Shown here one piece after another: positions 1-8,597 of a stretch of DNA of 43,838 bases; the stretch's first letter is position 1; each line of letters begins with the position of its first letter. The DNA is from an uncultured Deferribacteraceae bacterium (GTDB lineage: Bacteria; Chrysiogenota; Deferribacteres; CAMZNJ01), in assembly GCA_947313855.1 (NCBI GenBank), contig CAMZNS010000022.1, positions 1-43,838 of the forward strand. The letters run 5' to 3'. The position numbers were made by a program, and so were the translations under genes. Below the pieces are notes generated by a model. The model saw nothing but the letters and a program-made list of their open reading frames with translations. It was not told the origin of the DNA and did not search any database.

Positions 1-58
1 CGTTGAATAACAGACTAGTAAGCCGAACCGCCTACCCCAGATACCCAACTAACACTAC

Positions 59-94
59 AACAAAAGGGGCTTTGTCGAGGGAGGCTCTTTTGTT
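59..94. terminator. Hairpin AACAAAAGgGg...gCtCTTTTGTT, possible 3' boundary or terminator of the leftward transcript
   Basis: 8-bp perfect arms AACAAAAG/CTTTTGTT extended by a wobble pair; the minus-strand copy ends in TTTTGTT. Confidence 0.3.
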
Positions 95-99
95 AAGTC

Positions 100-312
100 A
101 AGCAACGGTCTAACAGATAGTTGTTATGGCTAGAGAAACAACGTAACCCACTAAGGAAAGACCTTGCGAGCGACCACAGAACTTTTATGAGCTCCGAAAC
201 GCTCGTTTCTCTTGTCAGTTATTAAACGAGTGTCCCCTTCTGAAACTTATGACTAATAGTCGATAAGGCAACGCACTAGGGAACACTAAGACAACCGCAG
301 ATGTCTAGATAC
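100..312 (-). ncRNA. Candidate type V-B tracrRNA (3' end uncertain)
   Basis: Sits between cas2 and the expected array. Minus-strand fold: outer stem AGTGTTCCC (287-279) with GGGGACACT (237-229, one U-G pair), then GTGCG (276-272), then inner hairpin CTTATcGACT-att-AGTCATAAG (267-246). This matches the layout of known Cas12b tracrRNAs. A promoter lies just upstream. Confidence 0.55.
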
Positions 313-318
313 AAAACC

Positions 319-347
319 AATCTAACACCTAACAAATACTTTGTCAA
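319..347 (-). promoter_or_regulatory. Sigma70-like promoter for the candidate tracrRNA
   Basis: Minus strand TTGACA (347-342), 17-nt spacer, TAGATT (324-319). Confidence 0.5.
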
Positions 348-382
348 CACTTTATTTACAACTAAAATATATTTACGAAAAA

Positions 383-676
383 TCAGTATATCATATAGCG
401 ACTCTCCGACTCATAAACACGCCTGCCGTAAGTCTCCCAACGATCAACCTCGAGATATTTATCTGTGCGGTGGAGCGGAATAAATATTACCTGATCATGA
501 TGATAATGGATGGTACTGGATATTTTGTCCTGAAGAATGGAAAGGTGGCTAGGGCTCAGTTGGCACAAAAATACGGACTTCTGAATGCCGTCACCATAAT
601 CTTTGACGATGCGGTGAACCTGCTGAAGGCGTTTGCTGTCGGATATGTCGTAAACAACTAACCAAGTCTTTTGCAT
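383..676 (-). CDS. cas2: CRISPR-associated endoribonuclease Cas2
   Basis: 97 aa; starts MQKTWLVVYDISDSKRLQQVHRIVKDYGDGIQKSVFLC, a typical Cas2 N-terminal beta strand with YDISD; adjacent to cas1. Confidence 0.93.
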   Translation of the reverse strand: MQKTWLVVYDISDSKRLQQVHRIVKDYGDGIQKSVFLCQLSPSHLSILQDKISSTIHYHHDQVIFIPLHRTDKYLEVDRWETYGRRVYESESRYMIY

Positions 677-717
677 AATCTCTGCTCCCTACCCCCCCCA
701 CTCCATTAAAAGCTATG

Positions 718-2656: not shown

Positions 2657-5600
2657 CTACTTCTGTAACTTTTTAGTTTCACGTTCCATAGCTTTGTAGT
2701 CGTAAAGTGTAATCCCATTGCCATTACGTCCATTCTGTGTAAATGGTGTGGCTAGTTTGTTGAGTCTATTCCTCACCATCGTCCAGAAGATCCCTTTTTG
2801 TGCGGTGTAGTAGTAGTCTTTGTTGAAAAGGATACCGCTGGGGTCACGGAACAGGTTAAATGTACCTTTGGCAACAACGCTACTATTTTTCTTTGTGCTT
2901 AGCTCCATGAGTTCGTCTACAACGGCTTGGTCTTCCCTTACCTCTTCGGTGTTGAGCAGGTTTGCCTCCCCCTGTGCACTGACTACTTGGAATGTAATGT
3001 CACTATTGCCAAGTCGTTTGAATTGGTAGTTTTTGCCAAATTCATGTTCGAGGTTTTTGTGGAACGATATCATAAACATGTTGGAGTTCTTTTTCACCGC
3101 ATTCTCGCAGTATTTGGAGTCGGGGGAGCTTTTGACAAGCATTTTGTTCCAGGATTTGTCCCATTTGAGGTATCGTGTTTGCAGGTTGGTGGCAGCGTTT
3201 TCGTCGGCGTTAACAACTTGCAACACCTTGTTGCCATTTTCATCGTAGGCAACACTCAAAAAGTCTGGGCCACCAGCTTTGATGACAAACCCTGTAATGC
3301 GGTCTTCGTGCGTTCCCATTCTAAAGAGTTCCTGCATCTCTGCCGATTTGCTTTCGCTGATATTTTTCAGCAAGTGATTCTGTAGCATTGTTGGTGCATA
3401 TTTCTGATCATTTTTGTTGCGACCGCTATGACGACCGATGGCAAATCCACGCACACCTGGGGCACCATTCTCGGAGTAGAATTGGCTGGTGTAATCGGCA
3501 TTGACGCTGATGACACGCATTTTGTAGGCATCGGCGGCTTTCTCCACTGTTTCCACAATGGCACGATGGGACCATGTCATTAGTGTACGGTTTCCCTGTC
3601 TGTCGCTTGAAAAGGAGGTTCTGTAGCTGGCGAGGTCTTCGAACAGGATAAGTTTGCATGTTTTGGCACCGTCAACAAGTTCCCAGCCGATTTTTTGTCC
3701 TGTTTGGAGGTCTTTTTCGACACTATTGCCGGCACTTTTTACAGGTCGATACCCTAAAGCAGCACGGATAATTAGGTCGGAGCCAACCTTCACCCTGTCG
3801 TCGCGGAGGCTTAGGATGTGGTCTTTGAATGTACGAAGGAACCTGCCGGTACGTTCTGCAGTTTCCATGCCCCTGTTCATATCGACTTTGCCGAGGTTTT
3901 GCCAGCTTTTCAGTAGCTGAAAAACGCGGTCGTAGTAGTCGATGGCACTGGCTGTTTTGCCCCATACAACCTTACGACTCCCATATTTGGTCGCCTTGCT
4001 GGTTCGTTGTATCTTGTACCAAGCGTAGATTAGGGTGCTGAAGCTCTTGCGTAGTTCGACCATCCCCTTGCGACGAATACTGTCCGCTTCGCTTTCGGGT
4101 AGGAACCTCATGTCGTGCAGGTCTAGCTGTTTCCCCTCTTTGACATCGCTCAGCCCGACCATAGTTGGGTTATTGGCGATGTTTGTTTTGATGCTGTGGA
4201 GGATATTGCTGTACACTCGGTGGCACACATCCATGTAGTTGGCGGTTTCTTGTGGCAGGATGCTTGCGAGGGATTCGGGCACACTGGGGTAGTGTTTTTT
4301 CAGTAGTGCGACTTGGTCAGCCACACTCCCTATATTTTGCATCTCTTCGGACACATTAGTGTTGGCATCGAGGTTCGCCGAAAAGTGCCTCGACATGTCT
4401 GAGATAGTGTCGGGAGCATCCTCTTTCCGACTAGTGTGCGGGTTTACGGATTTGATAAATCCGATATGCCCTTTGAAGAAGCCGATAATGTTGTACTGAT
4501 TGTTGCGTATGTTTTCGGCTCTTTTTGCGTCTGAGTGGGTTGCCCCTGCAACGATGGAGCCCTCGCCAGGCATATTGAGTGGGAAGGAGCGTACCTTTAC
4601 CGCATAAAGGTTGTCTTTTTTGCGATCGGGAATGGGGAACCACAGCGTACTGTTGCCTGCCCTTTCGTGTGTTGGTTCTTTGTCTGTAATCTCGAATACG
4701 GAGCAGGAAGCGAATGTGCGAACGCCCAGATCGATACTTAGTATGTTGTCGCCAACAGATAGGGCTTTGGTGATATTTTCGTTACCTGTACCATGGTTGC
4801 GGACAATCTCTTTTTGAATACCATTGGCAATTATTGGTGTAACATCAACGGTCATGCTGATAAAAGCAGGTCCGCCCATTGCTTTGTCGGGTGATGGTAT
4901 TTTTTCGTTGTTGAGGGTGTCGTTATCGTTATCGTTGGCGTTGGCGTTGGCAGTGTTGCGATTGTTGGCACGGTTGTTAGCACGAATACGTTCCATCTCC
5001 ATGCGTTCGAGCAGGTGTCGATCGTACACTATTTTACCGCCACCGAGTTCGCCACTGAACTGCTTGTAGTTCGAGTTAAATTCGACTTTAACTTTCTTGC
5101 CTGCAGTAGTGATATCGAAGCCGTCGAAGTGTGTTGTTCGTATGGCATGAATTTTGGGGTAAGTGTCGCCAACGGTGGGGATATCGTCTTTTTTGGATTT
5201 TTTCTGTTTGGGAGGTTTGCCCATGTTACCGAGGGATATTTCGTACATCCGTCGACCCTTGAGGTTGCCGTGGAATTCGTATGTGTCGTAGTTGCTTCCA
5301 CTGCTTTCGTATCGCGACCACTGTGGGTTGAAGATATGGTTCGGTGGCGTGTAGAGTGCGAAGTCACGGGTACGACGTTTTTCGAGTTTCCACATCCCTG
5401 TGGTTGCGACTAGCACGAATAATGGTACTTGGTTCTGATCGTCAGGACATGCCAAGGAGGTGGTATCTTTGTTGATACTTCTCCAGAGGAATGTTTTCGG
5501 TTTTTCGGCGTCTTTGACATCGTCCATGAAAATATCTTGTTGCCAGAGGTATTCGTTCCCTACTCGAGCGATAAACTGAAAGAAAGGGAAGTCGCCGAAG

Positions 5601-7174
5601 TTTTTGTTTTTTTGTTGCACAAGTTTGATAGCGGACTCTCTTCTGCTTTCGAGAACATCATCGCTCCACGGTTGATTGTCGTTTCTGGCTTTGACCCTGC
5701 CGATTTCGATACCGTACAACCCTTCGACCACAAGTTGCCACTGTTTGATTGTGCCTGTGTTCATGATGAAGTTTTCTTTTGCTTGATTGCCACTTGCCTT
5801 GCTTTGCGTTTGTGTGTATTCCTCTTCATAGTTGCCGATATCGTCAAGTGCTTTTTGGCCATGGTTCTGTTTTTTTATAAAATCGACACCCTTTTCGATG
5901 AGGTCGCTTGCACCTTTGAGTGATTTTTCGGCTTTGTCCACCCATGTTGTCCACGCTTTCATGTGTTCGATGGCAACAATGAGGGACATTTTCATTGGTA
6001 CAGATCCGGCGGTATTGTTGAGGCATGGCACGATGCATAATTCTTGCAATCGCCCCCTATCTAGTTCAACTTTAAGTTTGTGTTGCTCTTTTTGCTTGCT
6101 GTAGAATGTGTAGATCCATTCAACTTGAGCCATATTTTGGGGCATTAGTCGCCCTTGGTTGTAGCCTTCGTACCATTGAGTGAAGTACGGATCTTTGAGC
6201 CAACCGGGGGTGTTCCCTGTTCTGTTGTTGATTAGGGTATCGACTCCCATGTGGAAGTCGCCTTTGTTCATTATGCTCCCTGCTTTTTCCAGTGCCTCTG
6301 CTGAAATGGTGAACTGTTTCGGTTTGAGGCTTTTGCCTTCGTCGTCAAGTTTTTCGGTTTTGCCAGCGTCAAGAGTTGCGATGATTTTCTCTAGTGTAGC
6401 GTAGGTTTCGTCGCCGATATAAGCCTTTGTGCCTGCTTCAGAGGAGAAGTTGTATAAAAACGATGGTTCGCCACCAAAGGAGTTGGCAGGTTTCCCTTTA
6501 GCGTTAGGGTCAAGGTTGCCGTCGTCGCCTAGTACCGCTTCGGGGAGTATGAAGTCGTGGTATGCTTTGAGTAGTTTGAGGATGTCTTCGTCAGTTCCGC
6601 GTGCTGTTTCGTTATCGATCTCCATGCGGTTTTGTGCTTCGCGAGCCGTATCGATCTCTTTTGCGTTTGCTTTGGCAGTTTTTTGGTACTCCTCTAGGTT
6701 TAGCTCGGCGATACGTTTTTGGTTTAGTCGTACGAACTTGAGTCCAGCATCTTTGATCTCATCAGCACCGTAGAAGTAGAGCACTTTGGTGCTATCGGTA
6801 ACAATGGTGTTGTTATCCAATGTTTTGCCCATTTCGTTCTGTACTTGAGGTTTGATGTCTGTGAGGCATCTGAGTAGGTCGTAGTTGATTGAGTTTTGCA
6901 CTCCAATACCGCTATGTATGCCGTATGCGAGTGGGCTGTGGCTACGTACGATTGCATTTTTGTCAGCATCTGACTTGGCAGTGTCGTCGCCGAGGTGAAC
7001 TCGGAATTCTGGGTGAGCTCTCATTCGTAGTGATTCGCCGCGAAAGATCAGTAAAAGGAGTTCGTATTCTCGTGCGAGTTGGTTGACTTCTTTGTGTTTG
7101 TGCCATAGTTCTTTTCGTAGTTTGTTGGATCCTTTTGGGAAAAACAGCTTTAGTTTGTAGGCTTTGCTTGCCAT
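2657..7174 (-). CDS. cas12b: Type V-B CRISPR effector Cas12b (C2c1), unusually long
   Basis: 1505 aa. RuvC-I NILSIDLGVRTFASCSVF (D815), RuvC-II LILFEDLASY (E1179), RuvC-III VNADENAATNLQ (D1324). Further Cas12b-like blocks: FSGELGGGKIVYDRHLLERM, LLKSWQNLGKVD, FRDPSGILFNKDYYYTAQKGIFWTMVRNRL. Next to a Cas4-Cas1 fusion and cas2. Confidence 0.92.
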   Translation of the reverse strand: MASKAYKLKLFFPKGSNKLRKELWHKHKEVNQLAREYELLLLIFRGESLRMRAHPEFRVHLGDDTAKSDADKNAIVRSHSPLAYGIHSGIGVQNSINYDLLRCLTDIKPQVQNEMGKTLDNNTIVTDSTKVLYFYGADEIKDAGLKFVRLNQKRIAELNLEEYQKTAKANAKEIDTAREAQNRMEIDNETARGTDEDILKLLKAYHDFILPEAVLGDDGNLDPNAKGKPANSFGGEPSFLYNFSSEAGTKAYIGDETYATLEKIIATLDAGKTEKLDDEGKSLKPKQFTISAEALEKAGSIMNKGDFHMGVDTLINNRTGNTPGWLKDPYFTQWYEGYNQGRLMPQNMAQVEWIYTFYSKQKEQHKLKVELDRGRLQELCIVPCLNNTAGSVPMKMSLIVAIEHMKAWTTWVDKAEKSLKGASDLIEKGVDFIKKQNHGQKALDDIGNYEEEYTQTQSKASGNQAKENFIMNTGTIKQWQLVVEGLYGIEIGRVKARNDNQPWSDDVLESRRESAIKLVQQKNKNFGDFPFFQFIARVGNEYLWQQDIFMDDVKDAEKPKTFLWRSINKDTTSLACPDDQNQVPLFVLVATTGMWKLEKRRTRDFALYTPPNHIFNPQWSRYESSGSNYDTYEFHGNLKGRRMYEISLGNMGKPPKQKKSKKDDIPTVGDTYPKIHAIRTTHFDGFDITTAGKKVKVEFNSNYKQFSGELGGGKIVYDRHLLERMEMERIRANNRANNRNTANANANDNDNDTLNNEKIPSPDKAMGGPAFISMTVDVTPIIANGIQKEIVRNHGTGNENITKALSVGDNILSIDLGVRTFASCSVFEITDKEPTHERAGNSTLWFPIPDRKKDNLYAVKVRSFPLNMPGEGSIVAGATHSDAKRAENIRNNQYNIIGFFKGHIGFIKSVNPHTSRKEDAPDTISDMSRHFSANLDANTNVSEEMQNIGSVADQVALLKKHYPSVPESLASILPQETANYMDVCHRVYSNILHSIKTNIANNPTMVGLSDVKEGKQLDLHDMRFLPESEADSIRRKGMVELRKSFSTLIYAWYKIQRTSKATKYGSRKVVWGKTASAIDYYDRVFQLLKSWQNLGKVDMNRGMETAERTGRFLRTFKDHILSLRDDRVKVGSDLIIRAALGYRPVKSAGNSVEKDLQTGQKIGWELVDGAKTCKLILFEDLASYRTSFSSDRQGNRTLMTWSHRAIVETVEKAADAYKMRVISVNADYTSQFYSENGAPGVRGFAIGRHSGRNKNDQKYAPTMLQNHLLKNISESKSAEMQELFRMGTHEDRITGFVIKAGGPDFLSVAYDENGNKVLQVVNADENAATNLQTRYLKWDKSWNKMLVKSSPDSKYCENAVKKNSNMFMISFHKNLEHEFGKNYQFKRLGNSDITFQVVSAQGEANLLNTEEVREDQAVVDELMELSTKKNSSVVAKGTFNLFRDPSGILFNKDYYYTAQKGIFWTMVRNRLNKLATPFTQNGRNGNGITLYDYKAMERETKKLQK

Positions 7175-7362: not shown

Positions 7363-7502
7363 CAGTATGTATGTTTCATTCGGGTATCGTCCTGCTATTC
7401 GGTGATTTTTGTAACGGTTTTGCGTGTGTGGTTCTGCGGTTCTGTGCGAGGTTCTATGATAAATTATTCCATAAATACACGACAGCGACGCCCTTTTCGG
7501 GG

Positions 7503-7592
7503 TTGGAATAGATTATTCCATTTGGAATAGATTATTCCATTTGGAATAAATTAGCACATTTGGAATAATTTAGTATGGAATAATTTAGTACG
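7503..7592. repeat. Cluster of palindromic GGAATAgATTATTCC-type units
   Basis: Two near-identical tggaatagattattccattt units followed by three decayed tggaataa/ttag units. Confidence 0.75.
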
Positions 7593-7640
7593 GACAGGCG
7601 TGTTTATTGGTAGTTGCCTCTGTGTTGCTCTGTGTTGCCC

Positions 7641-7989
7641 AGCGTCGCCCTACCTTGCTCCACCTTATTGCCCCGTTGTTGTTGTGTTTCGTGGCGTGGC
7701 GTAACTTGAAGTTGAAGTATTATTATCGTTGCCCAGCACTGTCCAGCCCAGCACTGTCCAGCATCGCACTGTCCAGCGTTGCACCGTCCAGTGTTGCACC
7801 GTCCAGCGTCGCCCTACCTTGCTCCACCTTATTGCCCCGTTGTTGCTGTGTTTCGTGGCGTGGCGTAACTTGAAGTTGAAGTATTATTATCGTTGCCCAG
7901 CACTGTCCAGCATCGCACTGTCCAGCGTTGCCCTACCTTGCTCCACCTTATTGCCCCCCGTTGTTGTTGTGTTTCGTGGCGTGGCGTAA
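7641..7989. repeat. Tandem repeat of ~107-bp units (2.5 copies) with an internal 15-bp CCAGC-type minisatellite
   Basis: gccctaccttgctccaccttattgcccc(cc)gttgttg(t/c)tgtgtttcgtggcgtggcgtaa occurs three times (about 7648, 7811, 7930). ccagcatcgcactgt / ccagcgttgcaccgt / ccagtgttgcaccgt lie in between. Confidence 0.9.
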
Positions 7990-8597
7990 GCGTACAGCAA
8001 CTCTGTGGCAGTATCTTTGGCAACATCGATGTAGCTAGTATCCTTGTGGATGGTGCTAGCAACGATACCCCCTTCGTACAGCAGGTATATTGCTGTGGCA
8101 ATGGTTTGTCTGCTAGTTTTGTGCCCCCGTCCAGCTGTTCCGCTATGGGCGAAGTGCGACTCTAGGGCATCGGAGATGCATCCCTGCAGGGCAGTTTTGT
8201 AGTTAGCAACAATACTGCTCATTTCGTCACTTAAAGTGGTGTTACTTGTGCCTATGTAGGTGCTGATGAAGGGGCATCCGAGGCTTATGTCGTCGTTGAA
8301 GAGGGTTTTGGCGTAATTAAACACCACTGTAGCCTTGGAAATGCTGTCGGTTTTGCGTTCCATGAGTGTTTTGATGACTTCCAGGGAGGATTTTTGTCTT
8401 CGCGTTAGGTATTCGACCCCGAGTTCCTCTTTTGAGGCGAAGTTGAGGTAGAATGATGATTTGGAGACTCCAGCCTCTTTCAGGATTTCGTTTAGCGATG
8501 TTGCTTCGTACCCTTTTTGGCGAAAAAGTACGGAGGCTTTGCCGATTATGTTTTGTTGAGTGTTGTGTCGTTTTTGTCTAGCGTTGAGGCTGTCCAT
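7887..8597 (-). CDS. TetR/AcrR family transcriptional regulator
   Basis: N-terminal HTH: IIGKASVLFRQKGYEATSLNEILKEAGVSKSSFYLNFASKEELG. The C-terminal ~35 aa are encoded by the repeat region. Confidence 0.88.
   Translation of the reverse strand: MDSLNARQKRHNTQQNIIGKASVLFRQKGYEATSLNEILKEAGVSKSSFYLNFASKEELGVEYLTRRQKSSLEVIKTLMERKTDSISKATVVFNYAKTLFNDDISLGCPFISTYIGTSNTTLSDEMSSIVANYKTALQGCISDALESHFAHSGTAGRGHKTSRQTIATAIYLLYEGGIVASTIHKDTSYIDVAKDTATELLYAYATPRNTTTTGGNKVEQGRATLDSAMLDSAGQR

Follow-up and report, generated by a model that had tools for sequence, protein, structure and literature searches.

A predicted tracrRNA and a diverged second copy in the Cas12b locus of an uncultured Deferribacteraceae bacterium

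The window analysed here is a single contig of 43,838 nucleotides (C22) from a 1.34 Mb genome in 49 contigs assigned to an uncultured Deferribacteraceae bacterium, and its position 1 is a contig end. Close to that end lie three genes on the minus strand: cas2 (383-676; PF09827, E = 2.6e-17), a cas4-cas1 fusion (718-2565; PF01867, E = 3.5e-85, and PF01930, E = 1.6e-13, with NF049935 above its cut-off) and cas12b (2657-7174), whose 1505-residue product scores 334 bits against NF033949 (cut-off 150). All three RuvC acidic residues are retained in this protein, namely D815, E1179 (by alignment) and D1324 (by motif). The locus is ordered cas12b, cas4-cas1, cas2, a predicted tracrRNA gene (t1) and the CRISPR array, with the cas genes beside t1 and on the same strand throughout. 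An earlier, sequence-only reading of this DNA had assigned the system to type V-B, and we agree: a Cas12b effector with its RuvC catalytic residues is accompanied by adaptation genes and, across a contig join that we infer below, by an array. Within the cas4-cas1 fusion, positions 2100-2200 hold low-complexity 9-bp repeats (CAGCGTCAA) encoding a run of Asp, Ala and Val, and similar DNA is present at several places in a related genome (G001). Upstream of cas12b an operator-like palindrome of the TTGGAATAGATTATTCCA type recurs in several copies spaced 19 bp apart (7452-7590), near a TetR-family gene (7887-8597, minus strand). Around the 3′ end of the latter (7626-7957) are tandem 15-bp units (GCACTGTCCAGC...) and two 132-nt copies that are 95% identical.

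Positions 1-28 of the window (minus strand) are the first 28 nt of the CRISPR repeat, and the array therefore begins inside the window before running off the contig. It reappears at positions 1-2208 of contig C25, which opens within the same array and carries 31 repeats of GTTCGGCTTACTAGTCTGTTATTCAACGGGTCGCAC with 30 spacers of 34-40 nt. Both contigs end in the same array, from which we infer that they adjoin; an array had been expected to the left of position 1, and it extends from window position 28 onto C25. Twenty-nine of the C25 repeats are identical, one has a single change and one has four differences. The last of these, an internal repeat (GTTCCGCCTACTAGTCCGTTATTCATCGGGTCGCAC), lies at 292-327 of C25. 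The repeat contains GTTATTCAACG and terminates in CGCAC. No copies of it were found outside the array elsewhere in the genome or in viral contigs, and comparison of the array with phages gave no match.

The t1 gene is predicted on the minus strand at 312-200 (ends approximate) from its promoter, its structure and its pairing with the array repeat. A sigma-70-like promoter, TTGACA-N17-TAGATT, occupies 347-319 (TTGACA at 347-342, TAGATT at 324-319), with a TG preceding the -10 element. Downstream of it come a 5′ hairpin (AGACA/TGTCT, 306-289), the 5′ arm of an outer stem (AGTGTTCCC, 287-279), TA, the short anti-repeat GTGCG (276-272), an inner hairpin seen in the sequence (CTTATCGACTATTAGTCATAAG, 267-246) and the 3′ arm of the outer stem (GGGGACACT, 237-229), followed by CGTTTAATAAC. 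The two outer arms are complementary except for one U-G pair. The promoter, the outer pairing and the order of arms, TA, GTGCG and inner hairpin had all been read correctly from the sequence, base for base; the 5′ hairpin is additional. The long anti-repeat (AR1, ACTCGTTTAATAACTGACAAGAGAAACGAGC) spans 231-201. Further downstream, a possible 3′ hairpin (AACAAAAG...CTTTTGTT, 94-59) is without a U tail and absent from terminator predictions, and a role as terminator is uncertain. An Rfam search of the window returned zero family matches.

With the array repeat, AR1 forms a duplex of -25.6 kcal/mol over repeat nt 1-31, a value reached by 0/3000 shuffled anti-repeats (mean -11.4, sd 2.8), while GTGCG, enclosed by the outer stem, pairs with the last five repeat bases in a pseudoknot. 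The latter pairing had been anticipated. Reasoning from the GTGCx element of other Cas12b loci, the sequence-only reading proposed that the repeat should end in CGCAC, and this is exactly the end of the repeat on C25. It was a real prediction, because the window stops short of the final 8 nt of the repeat. The rule behind it also holds in our control, the A. dauci locus, where GTGCC is accompanied by a repeat ending GGCAC. A more speculative suggestion, that the sequence after the outer stem is anti-repeat as well, was right as to pairing, with GTTATTAAACG predicted and GTTATTCAACG found (10/11), but fell short in extent: the anti-repeat covers about 31 nt (231-201), not 11. The GTTATTCAACG part of the repeat was already present in window 1-28, where it had passed unmentioned. 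Both predictions together, the CGCAC end and the 10/11 match, were satisfied by 0/20,000 shuffled repeats, and the 10/11 match alone by 15/100,000. The tracr sequence can thus disclose how a repeat ends even before the array itself is known. AR1 begins inside the outer stem, sharing its first three bases (ACU) with the 3′ arm, and the lower three stem pairs may therefore be displaced upon crRNA binding; one of these three pairs is broken in the paralogue of t1 that we describe next. For t1 itself, pairing with a pseudo-repeat in cis was not significant.

When window positions 1-700 were compared with the whole genome, an extra match appeared at C25 2347-2395 (E = 1.3e-10). It lies in a second tracr-like gene, t2 (C25 2279-2467, plus strand), which is on the same strand as the array, adjoins its far end just beyond the last repeat and carries a diverged repeat in cis. 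No gap interrupts the alignment of the two genes between the -35 box and the end of the outer stem, and t2 has the same parts: a TTGACA-N17-TATGTT promoter, 5′ hairpin, outer stem, GTGCG and inner hairpin. Both TTGACAAAG and the spacing of the promoter hexamers are retained, as is the structure of the inner hairpin, and three of the five pairs of the 5′ hairpin are compensated. In a comparison that covers the t1/t2 pair alone, from one metagenome-assembled genome, 21/21 core pairs are kept in both copies, six of them with both partners changed and two with only one. When the partners were slid by 1-3 columns as a control for compensation, at most one two-sided change was seen. A covariance model built from t1 and t2 matched only these two places in the genome. 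No recognisable terminator was found for t2.

The pairing preference of t2 is opposite to that of t1. Its long anti-repeat (AR2, from C25 2395) pairs with the array repeat at -10.4 kcal/mol, which is at chance level (1252/3000 shuffles), but with a pseudo-repeat just downstream (C25 2426-2467) at -17.9 kcal/mol (36/3000 shuffles); AR1 against the same pseudo-repeat gives a chance-level -11.7. The pseudo-repeat aligns with positions 4-34 of the array repeat in 24/33 columns, its CGCGC end pairs with GTGCG through one U-G, and an extra G in AR2 is faced by an extra C in the pseudo-repeat. Among shuffled sequences, the similarity to the repeat alone arises in about 0.3% and the pairing with AR2 alone in about 1.2%, whereas the two together occurred in 0/4000 shuffles and 0/1618 genomic tiles, figures that are somewhat optimistic because the pseudo-repeat was spotted by eye before testing. 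By free energy the cis hairpin of t2 is not unusually stable (z = -1.1). No second array fitting AR2 was found in the genome. The second copy therefore has, as a single-guide RNA would, a tracr scaffold that pairs with a diverged repeat, presumably on one shared transcript. Its candidate guide (TGTAGTTCAATTTAA...), which follows the pseudo-repeat, itself forms a strong hairpin. We found no target for it: there was no match above chance to the cas promoters, t1 or the leader, PAM-proximal matches at cas regulatory regions did not exceed 6 nt, 15-mer matches elsewhere in the genome were about as numerous as expected by chance, and viral contigs held none.

The repeat has the CGCAC end and carries GTTATTCAACG, and the anti-repeat at 231-201 pairs with it at the energy given above; we therefore conclude, with a probability of roughly 0.93, that the minus strand at about 312-200 is the tracrRNA gene of this type V-B CRISPR-Cas system. 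The structure at 229-287 could in principle be a product of chance or belong to an unrelated structured RNA, such as a leader hairpin or an attenuator. The empty Rfam search would suit such an origin, but a repeat end foretold before it was seen, a 31-nt anti-repeat without equal in 3000 shuffles, a Cas12b-like layout and a paralogue with compensatory changes together make it very improbable. As the tracrRNA of this locus, t1 would be transcribed from its own promoter and fold into the 5′ hairpin and the outer stem enclosing GUGCG and the inner hairpin. It would then bind each array repeat twice, through the 31-nt long anti-repeat and through GUGCG with CGCAC, the latter forming a Cas12b-type pseudoknot. 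By analogy with Cas12b relatives, from which its transcription, trimming, loading and cleavage activity are extrapolated, the duplex would be trimmed and loaded into the 1505-residue Cas12b, and the spacer would direct DNA cleavage.

The duplicated copy seems to have exchanged the array, as its pairing partner, for a diverged repeat carried on its own transcript. Judging by sequence features, we see an even chance that t2 is a natural single-guide RNA, co-evolved with its own diverged repeat and able to load Cas12b independently of the array. Terminal CRISPR repeats often degenerate, and t2 might instead be a decaying, functionless duplicate of t1 whose apparent cis repeat is a worn-out terminal array repeat. 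A guide-like part for which no target was found, the lack of a recognisable terminator and the occurrence of t2 in one genome only would all accord with decay. Such a copy would not, however, be expected to show 0/21 broken pairs and six two-sided compensatory changes, and the retained promoter hexamers and spacing, the extra base of AR2 matched in the pseudo-repeat and the joint result for similarity and pairing (0/4000) also speak against decay, which we regard as possible but doubtful. A further reading, in which t2 works as an additional ordinary tracrRNA for this array from the array's far end, is distinctly unlikely. The core, GTGCG and promoter of t2 are retained and it adjoins the array on the same strand, as such a gene might, but for the array repeat AR2 is no better a partner than shuffled sequences are, and no other array that AR2 would fit was found in the genome. 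As a single-guide RNA, t2 could possibly repress a gene or hold the nuclease in check. Repression of the cas genes would be an analogy with the tracr-L of Cas9 and not a result, because the guide has no match above chance and folds into a strong hairpin. If t2 does act as its sequence suggests, guide RNAs that need no array, as known for Cas9, would exist in type V-B systems too and could be probed with one short RNA.

The organisation of t1 resembles that of the Cas12b tracrRNAs of Alicyclobacillus and Bacillus hisashii, which likewise have a 5′ hairpin, an outer stem with GTGCx and an inner hairpin inside it, a long anti-repeat immediately behind the stem, a short pairing with the five bases at the end of the repeat and a position between cas2 and the array. 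The guide of BhCas12b combines a long repeat/anti-repeat stem with a 5-bp short stem in a pseudoknot (PMC11246509). Unlike the type V-B loci of Alicyclobacillus and Bacillus, the one described here has a longer Cas12b (1505 residues, compared with about 1110-1140 in the solved chains) and a second, diverged tracr copy beyond the array. Searches for other Cas12b relatives returned none in viral contigs and, among plasmids, that of A. dauci only. The A. dauci locus has the order of parts seen in t1 (CCAACGG-TT-GTGCC-hairpin-CCGTTGG-GCTTCTCA, with a repeat ending TGAGAAGTGGCAC), and its anti-repeat pairs with its repeat; the t1/t2 model misses this tracrRNA, and the sequences have therefore diverged far. 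Across 51 genomes of the phylum, Cas12b was found in just the two of the same genus. The relative, G001, gave no match to t1, t2 or the repeat, and its contig breaks off inside cas12b with the rest of the locus unassembled. A literature search, which left out PMC6546382 (on tracrRNA evolution), found no published type V-B locus with two tracr genes.

For t2 the closest parallels come from Cas9 systems. The tracr-L of Streptococcus type II-A is a natural single-guide RNA, and both it and the scaRNA of Francisella act with Cas9, their known targets being a cas promoter or a lipoprotein operon (PMC8730458). Like these RNAs, t2 is CRISPR-derived, lies outside the array and has a repeat or anti-repeat that has diverged; given a common transcript, its anti-repeat and repeat would pair within one RNA, in the manner of a single guide. 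Unlike them, it forms a separate gene, a duplicate, and belongs to a type V-B locus; no target was found for it. A type V system with Cas12b, cas1, cas2 and 70-190 spacers has been described in Deferribacterota from the gut of Rimicaris kairei (PMC10344455), and resembles the present locus in its cas12b, cas1, cas2 and array; that symbiont of vent shrimp shares the phylum, and probably the lineage, of the bacterium studied here. The existence of a Cas12b system in shrimp-gut Deferribacterota was thus already on record. That report makes no mention of a tracrRNA or a second copy, and what is added here is the predicted tracrRNA t1 together with its diverged copy t2. For this large Cas12b of an uncultured symbiont lineage, t1 would be the RNA half that had been missing, and the system could now be reconstituted.
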